DNA from: Citrobacter gillenii
GTDB lineage: Bacteria; Pseudomonadota; Gammaproteobacteria; Enterobacterales; Enterobacteriaceae
Assembly (NCBI RefSeq): GCF_013337685.1
Contig: NZ_SUQN01000002.1
Location: 496,001 to 560,000, forward strand
Length of the DNA stretch: 64,000 bases
Direction: 5' to 3'
The position numbers and the translations under genes were made by a program. The stretch's first letter is position 1. Each line of letters opens with the position of its first letter. Below are positions 26,920 to 43,307 of this stretch, in pieces. The notes below the pieces were generated by a model, which was not told the DNA's origin, made no database searches, and saw only the letters and a list, made by a program, of their open reading frames with translations.

Positions 26920-27462
<543 letters not shown>

Positions 27463-27471
27463 GAGAATTGC

Positions 27472-28260
27472 ATGAGCAGTAACTTCAGACATCACCTGTT
27501 GAGTCTGTCGTTACTGGTTGGCATAGCGGCCCCTTGGGCCGCTTTTGCACAGGCGCCAATCAGTAGTGTCGGCTCAGGCTCGGTCGAAGACCGTGTCACT
27601 CAACTCGAGCGTATTTCTAACGCTCACAGTCAGCTTTTAACCCAACTCCAGCAACAACTCTCCGATAACCAGTCCGATATTGATTCCCTGCGTGGTCAAA
27701 TTCAGGAAAGTCAGTATCAACTGAATCAGGTTGTTGAGCGCCAGAAGCAGATTTTGACGCAGATGGACAGTCTTAGCAGCGGTGGTACGCCAGCGGCGCA
27801 GCCCGCAGCGGGCGACCAGAGCGGGGCTGCGGCCCCTGCGTCGGGTGCAGGCGCAGCAGCGACGTCAGGCGTTCCAGCAAGCTCTGGCGATGCGAATACC
27901 GATTACAATGCGGCAATTGCGCTGGTGCAGGATAAATCCCGCCAGGATGAAGCGATTGAAGCATTTCAGAACTTCATCAAAAATTATCCTGATTCCACCT
28001 ACCTGCCGAACGCGAATTACTGGCTGGGACAGTTGAATTACAACAAGGGTAAAAAAGATGATGCGGCGTTCTATTTTGCATCGGTAGTTAAAAACTTCCC
28101 GAAATCACCGAAGGCTGCAGACGCGATGTACAAAGTTGGCGTCATCATGCAGGACAAAGGTGATAAAGAAAAAGCCAAAGCGGTTTATCAACAGGTTATC
28201 ACTAAATACCCTGGTACTGATGGCGCGAAACAAGCGCAAAAACGCCTCGGCGCGATGTAA
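27472..28260 (+). CDS. cpoB: Cell division coordinator CpoB (YbgF)
   Basis: 262 residues: signal peptide ending AFA, a coiled-coil trimerisation segment (about 35-105, many Gln/Leu heptads), an Ala/Gly/Ser-rich linker, and a C-terminal TPR domain (DYNAAIALVQDKSRQDEAIEAFQNFIKNYPDS; YWLGQLNYNKGK). It connects Tol-Pal constriction with PBP1B peptidoglycan synthesis. Last gene of the operon. Confidence 0.96.
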   Translation: MSSNFRHHLLSLSLLVGIAAPWAAFAQAPISSVGSGSVEDRVTQLERISNAHSQLLTQLQQQLSDNQSDIDSLRGQIQESQYQLNQVVERQKQILTQMDSLSSGGTPAAQPAAGDQSGAAAPASGAGAAATSGVPASSGDANTDYNAAIALVQDKSRQDEAIEAFQNFIKNYPDSTYLPNANYWLGQLNYNKGKKDDAAFYFASVVKNFPKSPKAADAMYKVGVIMQDKGDKEKAKAVYQQVITKYPGTDGAKQAQKRLGAM

Positions 28261-28425: not shown

Positions 28426-28501
28426 GGGGCGTTAGCTCAGTTGGTAGAGCAGTTGACTTTTAATCAATTGGTCGCAGGTTCGAATCCTGCACGCCCCACC
28501 A
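28426..28501 (+). tRNA. lysT: tRNA-Lys (UUU), copy 1
   Basis: 76 bases with all four arms, anticodon TTT in GACTTTTAATC, and encoded CCA. The acceptor stem is GGGGCGT/ACGCCCC. Identical to the other three Lys copies in this cluster. The symbol follows the E. coli cluster order. Confidence 0.95.
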
Positions 28502-28536
28502 CTAACTTAGCAGTAAGCAGTATCCAGCGTAGTATC

Positions 28537-28612
28537 GGGTGATTAGCTCAGCTGGGAGAGCACCTCCCTTACAAGGAGGGGGTCGGCGGTTCGATCCCGT
28601 CATCACCCACCA
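28537..28612 (+). tRNA. valT: tRNA-Val (UAC)
   Basis: 76 bases, acceptor GGGTGAT/ATCACCC, anticodon TAC in CCTTACAAGG, encoded CCA. It sits between Lys copies 1 and 2 as in E. coli. Confidence 0.95.
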
Positions 28613-28615
28613 CTC

Positions 28616-28691
28616 GGGGCGTTAGCTCAGTTGGTAGAGCAGTTGACTTTTAATCAATTGGTCGCAGGTTCGAATCCTGCACGCCCCACCA
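28616..28691 (+). tRNA. lysW: tRNA-Lys (UUU), copy 2
   Basis: Identical to copy 1 over all 76 bases; it starts only three bases after the CCA of tRNA-Val. Confidence 0.95.
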
Positions 28692-28740
28692 ATTATTTTT
28701 GGTGGTTCCGAGTAAAAAATATTTCAGGCAACACCCGTAT

Positions 28741-28816
28741 GGGGCGTTAGCTCAGTTGGTAGAGCAGTTGACTTTTAATCAATTGGTCGCAGGTTCGAAT
28801 CCTGCACGCCCCACCA
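28741..28816 (+). tRNA. tRNA-Lys (UUU), copy 3
   Basis: Identical 76-base copy. A second tRNA-Val found at the comparable place in E. coli is absent here. Confidence 0.95.
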
Positions 28817-28863
28817 ATATCGCGGTGGGTTCCTGAAAAGAGTAAAGCAGTAAACCCCATATG

Positions 28864-28939
28864 GGGGCGTTAGCTCAGTTGGTAGAGCAGTTGACTTTTA
28901 ATCAATTGGTCGCAGGTTCGAATCCTGCACGCCCCACCA
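28864..28939 (+). tRNA. tRNA-Lys (UUU), copy 4
   Basis: Identical 76-base copy, preceded by one extra G, and followed five bases later by the operon terminator. Confidence 0.95.
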
Positions 28940-35890: not shown

Positions 35891-37032
35891 TGTCCGGCTC
35901 CTTGTGAAGGTTTACACACATAGAAGGTTTCTTTGATACCGGTTTTCACTTCGTACTGCGCAGCGACAGCCTGCTGTACCGCAGGAACCAACGCTTCAGG
36001 GATCAGCGCCACAATGCAGCCGCCGAAGCCGCCGCCGGTCATGCGCACGCCGCCCTGGGAGCCGATGGTCGCTTTGACGATCTCCACCAGGGTATCAATT
36101 TGCGGCACGGTAATTTCAAAGTCATCGCGCATGGAGGCGTGAGATTCCGCCATCAACTGGCCCATGCGCAGAAGGTCACCTTTTGCCAGGGCATCAGCGG
36201 CTTCCACGGTACGGGCATTTTCGGTGATCACGTGGCGGACGCGTTTGGCGACGATCGGGTCCAACTCATGGGCGACGGCGTTGAATGCCTCAAGGCTGAC
36301 ATCACGCAGCGCGGGCTGCTGGAAGAAGCGCGCGCCGGTTTCGCACTGCTCGCGACGGGTGTTGTACTCACTGCCGACCAGCGTACGCTTAAAGTTGCTG
36401 TTAATGATCACCACGGCGACGCCCTCAGGCATGGAGACCGCTTTGGTACCCAGCGTACGGCAGTCGATCAGTAGCGCATGATCTTTCTTGCCCAGCGCAG
36501 AAATCAGCTGATCCATGATGCCGCAGTTGCAACCGACGAACTGGTTTTCGGCTTCCTGACCGTTCAGGGCAATCTGCGCGCCGTCGAGCGGCAGGTGATA
36601 AAGCTGCTGGAATACGGTGCCGACCGCCACTTCCAGCGACGCTGAGGAGCTTAAGCCAGCGCCCTGCGGTACATTGCCGCTGATCACCAGATCGGCACCG
36701 CCAAAGGCGCTATTACGCTTTTGCAGGTGTTTTACCACGCCGCGGACATAGTTCGACCACTGCTGGCTGTCATGGGCGATAATCGGCGCGTCGAGAGAAA
36801 ACTCATCAACCTGATTCTCGTAGTCAGCGGCAATCACGCGCACGATGCGATCGTCACGCGTCGCACAGCTGATCACGGTTTGGTAGTCGATGGCGCAAGG
36901 CAGAACGAAGCCGTCGTTATAGTCGGTATGTTCGCCAATCAGGTTGACGCGACCGGGCGCCTGAATCGTATGGGTGGCAGGGTAGCCAAATGTTTCAGCA
37001 AACAGAGATTGTGTTTTTTCTTTCAGACTCAT
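35884..37032 (-). CDS. galK: Galactokinase
   Basis: 382 residues, GHMP kinase fold. It phosphorylates alpha-D-galactose with ATP. Signatures: [19 protein letters not shown] (galactose-binding), [18 protein letters not shown] (ATP loop) and [15 protein letters not shown]. Three bases separate it from galT upstream. Confidence 0.97.
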
Positions 37033-37035
37033 TTT

Positions 37036-38082
37036 TTAAACTCCGGATTCGCGAAAATGGATGTCACTGACCGCACGCAAACGCTCGGCGGCTTGTTCTG
37101 CCGTCAGGTCGCGCTGGGTTTCCGCCAGCATTTCATAACCGACCATAAATTTACGCACGGTCGCGGAACGCAGCAGGGGCGGATAAAAATGCGCGTGCAG
37201 CTGCCAGTGTTGATTCTCTTCGCCATTAAACGGTGCGCCGTGCCAGCCCATGGAATAAGGGAAAGAACACTGGAACAGATTGTCGTAACGGCTGGTCAGT
37301 TTCTTCAGCGCCAGCGCCAGGTCGGCACGCTGCGCGTCGGTCAAATCGGTAATACGCAGCACATGTGCTTTAGGCAGTAGCAGCGTTTCAAACGGCCATG
37401 CCGCCCAGTAAGGCACGACCGCCAGCCAGTGCTCGGTTTCCACCACCGTGCGGCTGCCGTCTGCCTGTTCACGCTGGACGTAATCGACCAGCATCGGTTT
37501 GCCTTGCTCAGCGAAATAGTCTTTTTGCAGGCGGTCTTCACGCTCTGCTTCATTGGGCAGGAAGCTATTGGCCCAAATCTGACCGTGCGGATGTGGGTTC
37601 GAACACCCCATCGCTGCGCCTTTATTTTCAAACACTTGTACCCAGGGATAGGTTTTCCCCAGATCGGCCGTTTGTGTCTGCCACGTTTTCACAATCTCCG
37701 TCAGCGCAGGCACGCTGAGTTCCGGCAGCGTTTTGCTGTGATCGGGTGAGAAGCAAATGACACGGCTGGTTCCACGTGCACTCTGACAGCGCATCAACGG
37801 ATCGTGACTGTCCGGTGCGTCCGGGGTGTCGGACATCAGCGCGGCAAAATCATTGGTAAAGACGTAGGTGCCGGTGTAATCCGGGTTTTTATCACCGGTT
37901 ACGCGCGTGTTACCTGCACACAGGAAGCAGTCCGGGTCATGTGCAGGGAGAACCTGCTTAGACGGTGTCTCCTGCGCCCCTTGCCAGGGGCGTTTGGCGC
38001 GATGTGGTGAGACGAGGATCCACTGCCCGGTAAGCGGGTTAAAGCGGCGGTGTGGATGATCGACAGGATTGAATTGCGTCAT
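37036..38082 (-). CDS. galT: Galactose-1-phosphate uridylyltransferase
   Basis: 348 residues, HIT superfamily. It exchanges UMP between UDP-glucose and galactose 1-phosphate. The active-site H-x-H-x-Q is in [11 protein letters not shown], and zinc-site cysteines in [10 protein letters not shown]. Second gene of the gal operon, nine bases after galE. Confidence 0.97.
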
Positions 38083-38091
38083 GACGTGTCC

Positions 38092-39108
38092 TTAATCCGA
38101 ATATCCTTGCGGATGGCGTGACTGCCAGTGCCAGGTGTCTTGTGCCATTTCGTCCAGCGTGCGGGTTACGCGCCAGTTTAATTCGCGATCGGCTTTGCTG
38201 GCATCTGCCCAGTAGGCGGGAAGATCGCCGTCACGACGCGGTGCAAAATGGTAGTTAATCGGTTTACCACAGGCTTTACTGAAGGCGTTGACCACGTCCA
38301 GTACGCTGCTGCCGACGCCCGCGCCGAGGTTATAAATATGCACACCTTGTTTACCCGCCAGTTTTTCCATAGCGACAACGTGCCCGTCGGCGAGATCCAT
38401 CACGTGGATGTAATCGCGAACGCCGGTACCATCTTCGGTAGGGTAGTCGTTGCCAAATACCGCAAGCGACTCGCGGCGGCCAACGGCAACTTGAGCAATG
38501 TAAGGCATCAGGTTGTTGGGAATGCCCTGCGGATCTTCGCCCATATCGCCTGACGGATGTGCGCCAACCGGGTTGAAGTAGCGCAGCAGCGCGATGCTCC
38601 ACTCTGGCTGGGCTTTTTGCAGATCGGTCAGGATCTGCTCGACCATCAGTTTGCTTTTGCCGTACGGGCTTTGCGGGGTTCCGGTTGGGAAGCTTTCAAC
38701 GTAAGGAATTTGCGGCTGATCGCCATAGACTGTGGCTGAGGAGCTGAAGATGAAGTTCTTGACGTTGGCGGCGCGCATCGCGTTTACCAGACGCAGGGTA
38801 CCGTTGACGTTGTTGTCGTAGTATTCCAGCGGTTTGGCAACAGACTCACCTACGGCCTTCAGACCGGCAAAGTGAATGACCGTATCAATGGCGTGATCGT
38901 GGAGAATTTCGGTGATCAGCGCTTCGTTGCGGATATCCCCTTCAATGAAGGTCGGATGCTTCGTGCCTAAACGCTCGATAACGGGCAGTACGCTGCGCTT
39001 ACTGTTGCAGAGGTTATCAAGGATCACTACGTCGTGACCGTTTTTCAGTAACTGCACGCACGTGTGGCTTCCGATGTAACCGCTACCACCTGTAACCAAT
39101 ACTCTCAT
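38092..39108 (-). CDS. galE: UDP-glucose 4-epimerase
   Basis: 338 residues from ATG 39108 (ACGGAGCGAATT upstream). It interconverts UDP-galactose and UDP-glucose. Extended short-chain dehydrogenase fold with NAD loop MRVLVTGGSGYIGSHT and catalytic Ser and Tyr-x-x-x-Lys (SSSATVYG; SPYGKSKLM). First gene of galETKM; the GalR internal operator lies within its first 40 bases. Confidence 0.97.
   Translation of the reverse strand: MRVLVTGGSGYIGSHTCVQLLKNGHDVVILDNLCNSKRSVLPVIERLGTKHPTFIEGDIRNEALITEILHDHAIDTVIHFAGLKAVGESVAKPLEYYDNNVNGTLRLVNAMRAANVKNFIFSSSATVYGDQPQIPYVESFPTGTPQSPYGKSKLMVEQILTDLQKAQPEWSIALLRYFNPVGAHPSGDMGEDPQGIPNNLMPYIAQVAVGRRESLAVFGNDYPTEDGTGVRDYIHVMDLADGHVVAMEKLAGKQGVHIYNLGAGVGSSVLDVVNAFSKACGKPINYHFAPRRDGDLPAYWADASKADRELNWRVTRTLDEMAQDTWHWQSRHPQGYSD
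39074..39089. promoter_or_regulatory. GalR/GalS internal operator O-I within galE
   Basis: On the gal strand GTGGTAGCGGTTACAT, the E. coli O-I sequence as I remember it. Its centre is 113 bases from the external operator, the spacing needed for the repression loop. Confidence 0.9.
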
Positions 39109-39144
39109 AATTCGCTCCGTTAAGCCTATGGTATGGAATGATCC

Positions 39145-39151
39145 TAGCATA
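39145..39151 (-). promoter_or_regulatory. gal promoter -10 element
   Basis: TATGCTA on the minus strand corresponds to the P2 -10 of the E. coli gal promoter. The adjacent P1 -10 region reads TAGGATC instead of TATGGTT, so the balance between the two promoters may differ. Confidence 0.6.
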
Positions 39152-39167
39152 ACAAAGATGCGAAAAG

Positions 39168-39183
39168 TGTGACATGGAATAAA
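39168..39183. promoter_or_regulatory. CRP site of the gal operon
   Basis: On the gal strand TTTAT-TCCATG-TCACA; one half is perfect, as in the E. coli gal CRP site that switches P1 and P2. Confidence 0.8.
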
Positions 39184-39186
39184 TTA

Positions 39187-39202
39187 GTGGAATCGTTTAC
39201 AC
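39187..39202. promoter_or_regulatory. GalR/GalS external operator O-E
   Basis: On the gal strand GTGTAAACGATTCCAC, the consensus GalR operator. Confidence 0.92.
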
Positions 39203-39446
39203 TTCAGTGTTTTCACCGTTTAGCGTCTTTTTTTTAATTGTAAATCATAGGGTTTGTTCACGACTGCGCCATTTATCCGAAAAAGCAGGTAAAAAAATGG
39301 GCGTCCAATGCGTACAGCACGTCAGTTAGACATGTATGGAAAATGTATTAGCCCGGAGCAGGATGTCGCTTCAGCGCTCTGACTTTCAGTCAAATTAATT
39401 TCTCTGTTCAGGTAAGTTCAAATAACAACACCGGTGGTTAGGTGTG
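39203..39446. other. Upstream flank of the structured element
   Basis: About 240 bases between the gal operators and the structured block, with no open frame that has a ribosome site. A small palindrome TGACT-TTC-AGTCA lies at 39380-39392. If the block is a mobile element this flank may contain its left end. Confidence 0.4.
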
Positions 39447-39660
39447 GGCTGGTCCGGCTGAAAATTGCCGACGAGTTTCCGTAAGGCCGGGAGAACCCGC
39501 AGGGATGTGGGTTCAGGGCGCGTTTTGCATGGACGCTTCCTCGCGCCCGGCCCGGTAGCCTGGAGGAATAAGCGGAGGGGACCACGAAGTGGCAATTTTC
39601 CCGCCGGGAGCCGGGATTGTAAAGGGGGTGGCGGAGAACGCCCTTTACCCGTTCACGGGT
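39447..39660 (+). ncRNA. Candidate structured RNA element (HEARO/omega-RNA-like), no ORF
   Basis: A GC-rich block with interlocking helices: GGCT/AGCC, CCGGC/GCCGG and GAAAATTGCC/GGCAATTTTC (39460-39469 with 39591-39600) form a long closing stem. Inside are GGCCGGG/CCCGGCC (39485-39491 with 39546-39552), a GAACCC-hairpin (39493-39514) and GGGCGCG/CGCGCCC. Downstream lie GTAAAGGG/CCCTTTAC (39619-39648) and ACCCG/CGGGT (39647-39660). Nearby pieces GTAAGGCC and a terminal ATGA at 39687 recall HEARO (IscB-associated omega) RNAs, but this identification is from memory. The strand is chosen on that resemblance only. No nuclease or transposase gene is present. Confidence 0.45.
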
Positions 39661-39726
39661 AGTGTGGCATCGGAGAAGCTATATACATGAGGTGAACGGA
39701 ACAGCTTGCCTGAAATAACATGTTTA

Positions 39727-41199
39727 TTATTCCAGGGACGTTTGTCGATAGCCATAGATCTCGCCGTCAGGCACAAACTCCAGTCGATGCGTAATACAGG
39801 CTGGCGCATCCTCGGCGTGGTGAGAAACGAACAGCAACTGGGTATCACCTTCGCCGATCAGCACATCAACAAAACGGCGGATCAACTGGCGATTCAGCGG
39901 ATCCAGCCCCTGCAAGGGTTCATCGAGGATTAACAGAGTAGGGTGCTTAACCAGCGCGCGAACAATCAGCGCCAGTCGCTGCTGACCCCAGGAAAGGCTG
40001 TGAAACGGCGCGTCGGCAGTACGCTTATCGATGCCCAGAATGTCTAACCACTGCTGTACCAGCTTACGCTGCCGGTCAGAAACCGCCTGGTAGATACCGA
40101 TCGAATCAAAATAACCGGAGAGGATCACGTTGCGTACCGTGGTACTGACGCGGTACTCGAGGTGCAGGCTGCTGCTGACATAGCCAATGTGTTTTTTAAT
40201 ATCCCAGATGGTTTCACCGCTGCCGCGACGACGACCAAACAGCGTCAGGGCGTTGCTGTAACCCTGTGGGTGATCGCCGGTGATTAAACTGAGCAGGGTG
40301 GATTTCCCTGCGCCATTTGGGCCGACAATTTGCCAGTGTTCGCCTGGATTCACCTGCCAGCTCAAGTGATGCAGAATAGGGCGATCGTTATACGAGACCA
40401 CGCCATCGTTGAGCACAATACGCGGTTCGTGATCGGCCAACGTACGGCGAACAGAGGGTTCATCTGGTTCGGGTAATGTAATCCCGGCCAGCTGTTCGCT
40501 ATGCGCAAGCTGGGCTATCAATGCCTGTTGCAGTAAACCGGCTTTCTCGCCGGTTTCAGTCAGGGTGCAATCCGCGAGGACGCCAGCAAACTGCACGAAT
40601 TCTGGAATCTCATCAAAGCGGTTGAGGACCAGCACCAGCGTAATACCTGCCTGATGCAACGTGGCGAGCAAATCCGCTAACTGATGACGTGACGCAACGT
40701 CCAGTCCGTCAAACGGTTCATCCAGGATCAGCAATTCCGGTTCCGACATCAGCGCCTGACAAAGCAGGGTTTTACGTGTTTCGCCGGTAGAGAGGTATTT
40801 GAAACGCCTGTCGAGCAGATGCGTAATGCCAAACTGCTGCGCCAGCGCTTTGCATCGCGCTGGATTTTTGATTTCATCGAGAATGATTTCTGCCGTCGTG
40901 CGTCCGGTGTCGTCTTCGCCGGGGCTGAGGAGATCGGTGTTATTACGCAGCCATTCGTCGCTGACCAGTTGTTGCAACTGCTCAAAGGAGAGTCGGGTGA
41001 TACGCGTGAACTGACAGCGGCGCTCGCCTTTTAACGGCGGCAATTCCCCCGCCAGCGCACGCGCTAACGCGGATTTCCCACTGCCGTTAGAACCGACAAA
41101 CGCCCAGCTATCCCCCGCGTTCAACGTCAACGTATTCAACTGGAGCGTTTTTGTGTCGCTCAGACGAAACGTGCCTTGCGAAATTTGCAACGATGACAT
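39727..41199 (-). CDS. modF: ModF, tandem ABC ATPase of the molybdate regulon
   Basis: 490 residues from ATG 41199; an in-frame ATG four codons earlier is possible. Two ABC cassettes, each with Walker A (GSNGSGKSALARA; GPNGAGKSTLLSL), signature (YLSTGETRKTLL; SLSWGQQRLALI) and Walker B (LLILDEPFDGLD; LLILDEPLQGLD). No membrane part. It is co-transcribed with modE, and its biochemical role is unsettled. The last residues (YGYRQTSLE) seem different from the E. coli end I recall, next to the structured element. Confidence 0.94.
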   Translation of the reverse strand: MSSLQISQGTFRLSDTKTLQLNTLTLNAGDSWAFVGSNGSGKSALARALAGELPPLKGERRCQFTRITRLSFEQLQQLVSDEWLRNNTDLLSPGEDDTGRTTAEIILDEIKNPARCKALAQQFGITHLLDRRFKYLSTGETRKTLLCQALMSEPELLILDEPFDGLDVASRHQLADLLATLHQAGITLVLVLNRFDEIPEFVQFAGVLADCTLTETGEKAGLLQQALIAQLAHSEQLAGITLPEPDEPSVRRTLADHEPRIVLNDGVVSYNDRPILHHLSWQVNPGEHWQIVGPNGAGKSTLLSLITGDHPQGYSNALTLFGRRRGSGETIWDIKKHIGYVSSSLHLEYRVSTTVRNVILSGYFDSIGIYQAVSDRQRKLVQQWLDILGIDKRTADAPFHSLSWGQQRLALIVRALVKHPTLLILDEPLQGLDPLNRQLIRRFVDVLIGEGDTQLLFVSHHAEDAPACITHRLEFVPDGEIYGYRQTSLE

Positions 41200-41266
41200 T
41201 TTATATCCCATTTTTTGCAGCAATGAACAACAGGGATACGTGTTCTGCGAGCCGATGTCAATCGAC

Positions 41267-42055
41267 TCAACACAACGTGGCAATAATCACTCTGTCGGCG
41301 TTGAAATACGCGGTGACGTTAGCGCCTTCTTGCAGCGTCGCGGCGTCTTCCGACGGAACCGTGGCGCACAGCGTCTGGCCATCGGGCAGCGCCATTAACA
41401 CTTCGCACTGTTCGGCGCCGCGCTCAATATGGCTGATGGTCCCCTGTAGTTGGTTATCAGCCGCCTGGGCGATAGCGTCGTCCTGGGTGATCCCCACCCA
41501 TGGCGCCTTCAGCAGGACCAGCACTTCTTTACCCTCATCCAGCCCTAAACGTTCGCCACTTTGCGCCGTCAACGCGACTTTCAGCCGCGTTTCGCCATCG
41601 GCCAGCAGGACATCAACATGCTGCTGAACCTGAGAGTGGTCGCGTGCGGTAATGGTGCCAAACCACTGGTTACGGGCGCTGGTTTGCAGTGAAAAACGGG
41701 AGATGGCTGCCAGCAAACTGTTCAGCGGCAGGGCGTCGTCATCGCTTAGGACATCAAACGCTTTCTGCTGAATTTGTGCCAGCAAATCGTAAAGTTGGAT
41801 TAGGCGCTGGCCATAGCGGGTTAATACCGCGCCGCCGCCGCCTTTGCCGCCGGTGGCGCGCTCTACCAGCGTTTGCTCACTGAGCTGGTTCATCTCATTG
41901 ATGGCATCCCAGGCGCTTTTATAACTGATGCCCGCATCCTTCGCGCCCTGACTAATAGAGCCGGAAAGCGCAATGTGCTTAAGCAGCGAAATGCGGCGGG
42001 GATCGGCAAACAGCTTTTGCTGAAGTTTCAGGGTAAGAAGGATTTCGGCCTGCAT
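41267..42055 (-). CDS. modE: Molybdate-responsive regulator ModE
   Basis: 262 residues from ATG 42055 (CAGGAGCTTGAT upstream). Winged-helix DNA-binding domain (LFADPRRISLLKHIALSGSISQGAKDAGISYKSAWDAINEM) with the loop ATGGKGGGGAVLT, then a di-mop pair (about 125-262; SARNQWFGTI and NQLQGTISHI) that binds molybdate. It represses modABC and activates molybdenum-enzyme operons. Confidence 0.96.
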   Translation of the reverse strand: MQAEILLTLKLQQKLFADPRRISLLKHIALSGSISQGAKDAGISYKSAWDAINEMNQLSEQTLVERATGGKGGGGAVLTRYGQRLIQLYDLLAQIQQKAFDVLSDDDALPLNSLLAAISRFSLQTSARNQWFGTITARDHSQVQQHVDVLLADGETRLKVALTAQSGERLGLDEGKEVLVLLKAPWVGITQDDAIAQAADNQLQGTISHIERGAEQCEVLMALPDGQTLCATVPSEDAATLQEGANVTAYFNADRVIIATLC

Positions 42056-42163
42056 ATCAAGCTCCTGGCAAAAAGGATATTGTGACGGAAAACCGCGCGC
42101 GCGCAAAGTCGACCGCACAAAAGGGGAGTGCAATTCTGCGTTATGGGGTTAAAATACAGCTAA

Positions 42164-42334
<171 letters not shown>

Positions 42335-42340
42335 TTCCCC

Positions 42341-42372
42341 AAACGCCCGCTCAGTCGGGCGTTTATCTTTTT
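42341..42372 (+). terminator. Intrinsic terminator after acrZ
   Basis: AAACGCCCG (42341-42349) and CGGGCGTTT (42356-42364), loop CTCAGT, then ATCTTTTT. Confidence 0.88.
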
Positions 42373-42489
42373 CGCCTTCCAGCTCGTTTTCGGTGCCTGT
42401 AGTTTCTCAAGATCCTGCTTTTCCTGCCGATAATTTCTTTATATAACCTTTGATGGGTACGAATAACCACTGGGAAAATCCTGAATTAA

Positions 42490-42515
42490 TCGTTATATTG
42501 CTTCGTACATAACGA
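42490..42515. promoter_or_regulatory. ModE operator of modABC
   Basis: TCGTTAT (42490-42496) and ATAACGA (42509-42515) are perfect inverted halves with 12 bases between, as in the E. coli ModE site overlapping the modA promoter. It ends 18 bases before the modA ATG. Confidence 0.88.
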
Positions 42516-42533
42516 AGCTCAAAGGAGTTACAG

Positions 42534-43307
42534 ATGGTACGTACATGGTTACGCTTGTTTGCAGGGGCAACACTCTCTCTTTCTGTTGCCGGGCATGCAT
42601 TGGCGGATGAAGGCAAAATTACGGTGTTCGCCGCGGCGTCGCTGACGAATGCGATGCAGGACATTGCAGCCCAGTATAAAAAAGAGAAGAACGTGGACGT
42701 CGTCTCCTCTTTTGCCTCGTCTTCTACGCTGGCGCGCCAGATTGAAGCCGGTGCGCCCGCCGATCTGTTTATTTCCGCCGACCAGAAATGGATGGATTAT
42801 GCGGTAGACAAAAAGTCTATCGACACCGCATCGCGTAAAACGCTGCTCGGTAACAGCCTGGTGGTCGTGGCGCCAAAAGCGAGCGAGCAGAAAGCGTTTG
42901 CCATCGACAGTAAAACCAACTGGACCAGCCTGTTGAACGGTGGGCGTCTGGCGGTCGGTGACCCGGAACATGTTCCGGCGGGCATTTATGCCAAAGAAGC
43001 GCTGCAAAAACTGGGCGCATGGGATACTCTGGCGCCGAAACTGGCCCCAGCTGAAGACGTACGCGGCGCACTGGCGCTGGTCGAACGTAACGAAGCGCCG
43101 CTGGGGATTGTTTACGGTTCCGATGCCGTCGCCAGCAAAGGCGTCAAAGTAGTCGCCACGTTCCCGGAAGATTCACACAAAAAAGTCGAATACCCTATCG
43201 CGATTGTTGATGGGCATTCTAACGCCACGGTCAGCGCGTTCTATGATTACCTGAAAGGACCGCAGGCTGCTGATATCTTTAAACGTTATGGATTTACGAC
43301 CAAGTAA
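42534..43307 (+). CDS. modA: Molybdate-binding periplasmic protein
   Basis: 257 residues: signal peptide ending GHALA near residue 24, then a type-II solute-binding fold. Ligand residues include the N-terminal FAAASLTNAM and the SSSTLARQIEAGAPADLFISA segment. It delivers molybdate or tungstate to ModBC. AAAGGAG precedes the ATG; TAATGA overlap with modB. Confidence 0.97.
   Translation: MVRTWLRLFAGATLSLSVAGHALADEGKITVFAAASLTNAMQDIAAQYKKEKNVDVVSSFASSSTLARQIEAGAPADLFISADQKWMDYAVDKKSIDTASRKTLLGNSLVVVAPKASEQKAFAIDSKTNWTSLLNGGRLAVGDPEHVPAGIYAKEALQKLGAWDTLAPKLAPAEDVRGALALVERNEAPLGIVYGSDAVASKGVKVVATFPEDSHKKVEYPIAIVDGHSNATVSAFYDYLKGPQAADIFKRYGFTTK

Follow-up and report, generated by a model that had tools for sequence, protein, structure and literature searches.

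Inspection by eye of the open reading frames (ORFs) between positions 36000 and 43000 of the analyzed DNA (a 64-kb stretch of the Citrobacter gillenii genome, here called the window) revealed galK, galT, galE, modF, and modE-like and modA-like frames. The galE ORF (38092-39150) and the modF ORF (39727-41283) are both located on the minus strand; we take these gene names, which the annotated locus of E. coli K-12 supports, to be correct. A structured stretch (39447-39690) lies between them. An earlier note had described it as a multi-helix, ORF-less RNA-type element, possibly a HEARO (omega) RNA connected with a mobile element but accompanied by no nuclease of its own, and no IscB/IsrB-type nuclease was recognised when the ORF list of 36000-43000 was judged by eye. 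The stretch is real, but the true element extends from about 39313 to 39729. It is indeed present between galE and modF, yet many unrelated sites carry the same sequence. Elsewhere in the window, the Rfam scan identified a CpoB/ybgF thermometer and five clustered tRNA genes (27363-27501 and 28426-28936).

The plus strand of the element contains an RNA module whose core (39452-39613) scores 181.5 bits against R1, a covariance model of the module core built from 33 copies, this one among them. The closing stem P2, recognised by the earlier note along with further helices, joins GAAAATTGCC (39460-39469) to GGCAATTTTC (39591-39600) and is present in the sequence, in the folding and in the alignment. 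In addition, the following elements were distinguished: stem P1 (5′ strand 39453-39458, 3′ strand 39603-39609), hairpin 1 (39493-39514), hairpin 2 (39516-39548), a small covarying hairpin CCACGAAGTGG (39582-39592), a strong 3′ hairpin (39619-39648), and a terminal hairpin CGTTCAC...GTGAACG (39650-39702) with the 3′ end GGAAC. The ATGA at 39687, which had been placed just past the 3′ end, is actually situated within the terminal hairpin. Folded as RNA, the plus strand reaches -115.3 kcal/mol (z = -3.30; 1 of 200 dinucleotide shuffles was as stable), while the minus strand folded as DNA gives z = -3.95 (none of 200 dinucleotide shuffles was as good).

Conservation of the fold was analyzed in alignment A1, which comprises 53 distinct copies: 52 of the 68 extracted (15 were left out) and the window copy, standing for its identical row in locus L003. 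RNAalifold predicted 51 pairs, 31 of which show compensatory changes on both sides, so the covariance in homologues on which the earlier note had made its reading depend was found, and the fold is kept in all 53 copies. Standard pairs fill 97.2% of the cells in A1 compared with 84.1% in shuffles, and none of 500 shuffles reaches any of five pairing measures. Sliding the partners by 1-3 columns reduced pairing to 38-43%, although this control leans toward the structure, because RNAalifold chose it on the same alignment. Changes on both sides were found in 3 of 4 counted pairs of P1, in 3 of 8 pairs of the helix holding the first eight closing-stem pairs, and in 6 of 8 pairs of the hairpin 1 stem; 3 of 4 pairs are compensated in the small hairpin and 8 of 11 in the strong 3′ hairpin. 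The terminal hairpin shows no covariation because it is nearly invariant in A1. This comparative evidence is decisive support for the helices being real. Where a pair was predicted on both strands (42 pairs), G-U combinations are more frequent than A-C (21 versus 9 cells, 12 versus 5 pairs), an excess that modestly favours the plus strand acting as RNA. The frame noted earlier as the only open one is not a gene, being interrupted by a stop codon in 39 of the 53 copies; the element thus has no coding capacity, and a protein-coding repeat was ruled out.

All Rfam families were searched against positions 39000-40000. At E ≤ 10 this revealed three matches, all below cut-off: TwoAYGGAY (RF01731; 26.9 bits, cut-off 43, E 0.1) and two weaker ones. 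HEARO was not among them, and no HEARO match above cut-off was found in the whole window. TwoAYGGAY, which appears as a table row in PMC2864571, resembles the module in its closing stem and in two hairpins with AYGGAY loops. The model RF01731 has no match in the genome of the window species; of 369 class genomes, 15 contain a match that passes its cut-off, this one not included. Only one of ten scanned loci passed this cut-off (L028, 49.2 bits, a training locus of R1), and the copy in L004 scored 35.7 bits. Among further loci submitted to the scan, five of seven distant gammaproteobacterial ones, found with R1, exceed the TwoAYGGAY cut-off, as opposed to 1 of 11 enterobacterial ones. Among the matches listed by this 369-genome search, 57 were examined for pairing and include four close pairs, all head to head; a further close pair, below cut-off and outside this set (G373:C40), has direct orientation. 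Thus, like the element described here, the distant gammaproteobacterial members of the family are multi-copy and their close pairs above cut-off are arranged head to head; the enterobacterial modules differ from them by additional hairpins on the 3′ side and, in several genera, by tips of the IS4 type. In another genus, the modules of genomes G192 and G280 have a different 3′ hairpin, GCGCTCCC...GGGAGCGC, in place of the terminal one. In one G192 region (C1:1789217-1791392; L118, L152), near-identical modules are repeated in direct orientation about every 446 bp, and REP-like sequences were seen by eye at the flanks of other G192 copies.

Further copies, for which the earlier note had advised a search, are dispersed in the genome of the window species, in the genus and in E. 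coli. Ten matches to positions 39400-39720 were found in the own genome, and contigs of this assembly break inside copies (C9 of G000 at both ends, C6 at its start, C12 at its end), so the copy number may be underestimated. With positions 39404-39702 as the query, matches were obtained in 13 of 15 other genus genomes (0-23 each, halves and fragments counted) and, overall, in 19 of 60 relatives, the own genome included. The module alone (39452-39702) matches 5375 of 5426 complete E. coli genomes, mostly in part, with at least 80% coverage in 60 genomes; an E. coli copy used as the query again matched 5375 genomes (median of 3 places), 1907 of which have a place covered to at least 80%. Model R1 finds 83 of 246 family genomes and 9 of 369 class genomes, the own genome being included in both. 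One exact core pattern occurs in 56 stretches, whose named hosts include Citrobacter, Escherichia, Kluyvera, Enterobacter sp. ENT03, Pseudocitrobacter, Trabulsiella and Pluralibacter; one record with this pattern is titled Chryseobacterium. No match indicating a phage origin was obtained in 50,697 phage records. Twenty-two plasmid records match, 21 of them typed as non-mobilizable. Of five plasmid matches inspected, four are annotated and show chromosomal-type genes adjoining the element, and one is without annotated genes; from the neighbouring genes of these few records we provisionally take the plasmid matches to be chromosomal pieces or integrations.

In many copies a second module, about 70% identical and in the opposite direction, was identified approximately 45-60 bp from the 299 bp repeat. 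The intact element is a composite of about 590-800 bp, most often near 730 bp, composed of two divergent modules (B and A) that are arranged head to head and point outward. Beyond the module 3′ end (GTGAACGGAAC) there is an arm terminating in an IS4-like tip. Such a tip (at most 5 of 18 mismatches) was found at 43 of 72 module 3′ ends, at 48-50 bp in 24 cases and at 82-87 bp in 12, while 24 of the 72 ends have no recognisable tip (at least 7 mismatches). In other genera, 11 of 46 modules have a tip when up to 3 mismatches in 15 positions are allowed, compared with 12 of 400 stretches drawn at random from these loci, and paired modules with IS4-type tips occur there in L106, L117, L123 and L028; no tip was found in the E. 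coli locus L001. According to the K-12 record, the ends of IS4 itself (the insG copy) read TAATGCCAGTCAGTTAAG and TAATGCCGATCAGTTAAG, with a duplication of 12 bp in the flanks. IS4 and the element thus share the terminal TAATGCCnnTCAGTTAA and a target duplication of similar length (10-13 bp in the family, 12 bp in K-12), but the element has no transposase, matches IS4 in the tips only and is frequently located in terminator hairpins.

Tip pairs defined by set criteria were identified in 22 loci of the genus and other genera (27 pairings, alternatives included), some of which represent the same site in related species and hence are not all independent. A target-duplication score of at least 5 was reached by 10 of the 27 pairings compared with 0.75% of shuffled pairings, and four loci have perfect duplications: L038 (11 bp), L117 (12 bp), L028 (13 bp) and L123 (13 bp). 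When the flanks were joined to rebuild the target, 8 of the 22 loci were terminator-like, compared with 65 of 1320 control positions, which were taken 150-500 bp outside the elements and include coding DNA. The duplicated 12 bp of L117 form the centre of AAAAAGCCTCACATTGTGAGGCTTTTTT. The connection with a mobile element suggested by the earlier note is thus borne out by IS4-type inverted-repeat ends and target duplications in the family.

Comparison of empty and filled galE-modF sites, also proposed in that note, was performed for 17 genus genomes, with spacing measured between chosen anchors. The site is empty in 14 of them (231-236 bp) and filled in three: the spacing is 632 bp both in the own genome and in a second genome of this species, and 975 bp in G008. 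E. coli K-12 has no copy there. In 13 of the 14 empty sites an intrinsic terminator (a hairpin with a T-run) on the modF strand is situated exactly at the insertion point, whereas the scan detected none in the three filled sites and none in K-12. The remaining half of the interrupted modF terminator was assigned to 39291-39312 on the minus strand. On the plus strand, the window copy keeps the left tip, a decayed IS4-type terminal inverted repeat (39313-39329), whose first 16 bases are identical to the left tip of G008, itself differing from IS4 at 6 of 18 positions (L032 row). The tip belongs to the outer arm of the lost B half (39313-39364), which corresponds to the B outer arm seen in the complete element of G008, and is followed by the central spacer (39365-39451), which matches the spacer of complete composites, and by the whole A module. 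The B module, missing between 39364 and 39365, and the right tip are lost, and the outer arm of the A half (39703-39729), compared with other A arms and with G008, is truncated at a junction that coincides with the modF stop codon. As only this single decayed tip is left, a target duplication cannot be shown for the window copy; that of G008, judged by eye, is poor at best. The G008 copy (L046) has both modules and the same left tip as the window copy (39300-39750), and its interior orientation is opposite to that of the window species, which suggests a flip of the interior between inverted repeats. As judged from these sequence comparisons, the element appears to have hit the modF terminator, with subsequent deletion of the B half and the right tip. 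Loss of this terminator could direct modF transcripts toward galE.

High-affinity sites of the regulators CsrA and RsmE are described in PMC7652899 and PMC4005645 as ANGGAX hexaloops placed directly on a C-G-closed stem, in which the positions N and X vary; the distance over which CsrA can bridge two sites is given as 10-63 nt, preferably more than 18 nt. In the window copy, loop 1 (AGGGAU, 39501-39506) rests on a C-G pair, and loop 2 (AUGGAC, 39529-39534) follows at a distance of 28 nt. Of the 53 copies in A1, 51 have ANGGA in loop 1, 50 have it in loop 2 and 49 have it in both; in these 49 the two GGA triplets lie 28 nt apart in 46 cases and 29 nt apart in three. The base preceding GGA varies freely, and the stems change by compensation. 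Hence ANGGA hairpin loops and a bridging distance are both present in the module, and on the strength of the sequence the two loops look like a CsrA/RsmE binding signature. One CsrA dimer could bridge both hairpins because C-G-closed ANGGAY hexaloops are 28-29 nt apart. Hairpin 1 is long and stable, unlike the mostly short stems of SELEX sites reported in PMC7652899, and may therefore bind CsrA with lower affinity. One loop is mutated in the E. coli copy L001. When ANGGA hairpins were counted automatically in 70 R1 hits from across the family, 13 hits had two, 49 had one and 8 had none, compared with 23, 236 and 1141, respectively, of 1400 shuffled sequences; the second loop is thus often weak or without N outside the genus. 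The own genome contains csrA, as do 36 of 37 tested genomes that carry the element; only G573, a fragmented assembly with 7% contamination, gave none. This is a weak test because csrA is nearly universal in such genomes.

No promoter above chance was detected inside the element, spacer 39365-39451 included, and the terminator scan found none at the module's own hairpins. Placement was determined for 42 single modules with callable neighbours, some of which represent the same site in related strains: 25 are located between convergent genes and one in a divergent space, while those at tandem-gene sites (5 sense, 11 antisense) show no sense bias. This placement fits terminator targets and promoter avoidance, not a preference for the sense orientation.

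Taken together, we consider it probable that the window sequence is a decayed, non-autonomous element of the IS4 type, and that such elements spread CsrA-binding RNA modules. An IS4-group transposase would have moved the element in trans, in the past: none was found in the own genome, and the Nterm_IS4 domain (PF13006) was detected in just 1 of 17 genus genomes, so mobilisation in the genus is regarded as historical. Insertion, often into hairpins of intrinsic terminators, duplicates 10-13 bp of the target. As no promoter stands out, sense RNA would come from read-through, and the head-to-head pair would present one sense module to read-through from either flank, whatever the orientation of the insertion. 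Such transcripts are predicted to bind CsrA, causing either its titration or its recruitment to the 3′ end of the host transcript. The copy in the window is probably a silent relic, because the A module, which alone survives, lies antisense to read-through from modF and no promoter could be recognised for it. A broader reading is tentative, and we consider it possible but not likely: terminator-seeking IS4-type elements would act as transposon-borne CsrA traps that add CsrA-responsive 3′ ends or sponges in many Enterobacteriaceae, including E. coli, and the head-to-head TwoAYGGAY pairs found elsewhere in Gammaproteobacteria would be elements of the same kind with other ends.

Two rival explanations were weighed. 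The module could belong to a purely selfish DNA element, with hairpins serving transposition or forming as structures in single-stranded DNA and with ANGGA kept for a reason other than CsrA. Inverted pairs, mobile ends and the lack of a detected promoter agree with this, as does the good folding of the minus strand as DNA, and the G-U versus A-C asymmetry is modest. However, ANGGA with a free N, a fixed spacing and compensating stems are hard to explain without an RNA-binding partner, and the inner structure is common to elements with different 3′ hairpins and to the distant TwoAYGGAY loci; we regard this explanation as unlikely. The module could also be a structure of 3′ untranslated regions that, like REP/BIME or ERIC repeats, stabilises transcripts or brings them to an end, its resemblance to CsrA sites being secondary. 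The excess of convergent over divergent placement and the frequent choice of terminators as targets are in line with such a role. Nevertheless, target choice together with selection against insertion into promoters also leads to this placement, no terminator was detected at the module hairpins by the scan, and both loops are constrained in sequence and not in shape alone, which makes this role rather improbable.

The remaining two proposals are given hardly any weight. In the earlier note the stretch was tentatively read as a stand-alone HEARO RNA, either a relic or a trans-acting guide of an IS200/IS605-type nuclease system. The element does resemble HEARO (RF02033) in being structured, ORF-less and tied to a mobile element, but it differs in the absence of a model match, in its conserved ANGGA loops and in the kind of transposon, since the family has IS4-type inverted repeats with target duplications and IS200/IS605 elements are not known to make any. 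This reading therefore has a negligible probability. Ordinary control DNA of the gal and mod genes, which the position between modF and galE, upstream of galE, might indicate, was rejected with the same near-certainty, the sequence being missing from the site in 14 of 17 genus genomes and in K-12 and present at many unrelated sites. RyfA/PAIR3 of E. coli was considered as a candidate and also rejected; comparison of the window copy with 43 loci including the K-12 ryfA stretch (L042) gave no match, and ryfA did not appear in the Rfam scan.

An IS4-type element carrying TwoAYGGAY-like modules remains the preferred interpretation, and it can be compared with several known systems. Enterobacterial miniature inverted-repeat transposable elements (MITEs) such as ERIC are likewise ORF-less, intergenic, bordered by inverted repeats and present in many copies. 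MITEs are usually shorter than 500 bp, according to PMC10969869, whereas the intact composites reach about 590-800 bp and contain two divergent conserved RNA folds. The module shares ANGGA in hairpin loops and the bridging distance with the CsrA-sequestering small RNAs CsrB, CsrC and RsmZ; unlike them, it has two loop sites in place of many, is part of a mobile element and shows no promoter or terminator of its own, and its binding of CsrA is a prediction. According to PMC4333381, two motifs for CsrA binding have been predicted in TwoAYGGAY. The literature search, which covered open-access main texts, yielded no account of a TwoAYGGAY element with IS4 tips: queries combining the IS4 family with MITEs or terminators returned only a report on a Porphyromonas MITE, those combining CsrA with insertion-sequence terms returned nothing, and those combining CsrA with transposable elements and sponges returned nothing judged relevant. 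As far as this search extends, the IS4-type mobile context, the targeting of terminators, and the enterobacterial (including E. coli) branch of TwoAYGGAY-like RNA with CsrA-type loops are new. TwoAYGGAY, an RNA family without a demonstrated function in the parts of the literature covered, thereby gains a genomic context and a tie to mobility, and its loop pattern opens the older CsrA prediction to tests in standard laboratory strains. If the predicted binding is true, mobile DNA has spread sites for a global post-transcriptional regulator.

Several minor observations concern individual loci. Stretches of 6 kb between elements in genomes G000 and G002 were considered as a possible autonomous version, but inspection by eye identified ordinary chromosomal genes. 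In a distant gammaproteobacterium (L127, 1704-2657), two inverted TwoAYGGAY modules 1.2 kb apart enclose an ORF of 317 aa which, by eye, has SH3-like and thermonuclease-like parts. In genome G026 (4.3 Mb, 50 matches), inverted module pairs recur in tandem about every 640 bp (L078, L029). Three other elements of distant Gammaproteobacteria, L134 (approximately 1331-1992), L230 and L234, each form an imperfect inverted repeat over their whole length of about 580-660 bp, and L134 has long terminal inverted repeats that, by eye, are unlike those of IS4. Finally, one copy is adjoined by a phage-type control region (L006, 2266-2450) with a C4 antisense RNA (77.9 bits) and sub-threshold matches to isrK and c4-a1b1.
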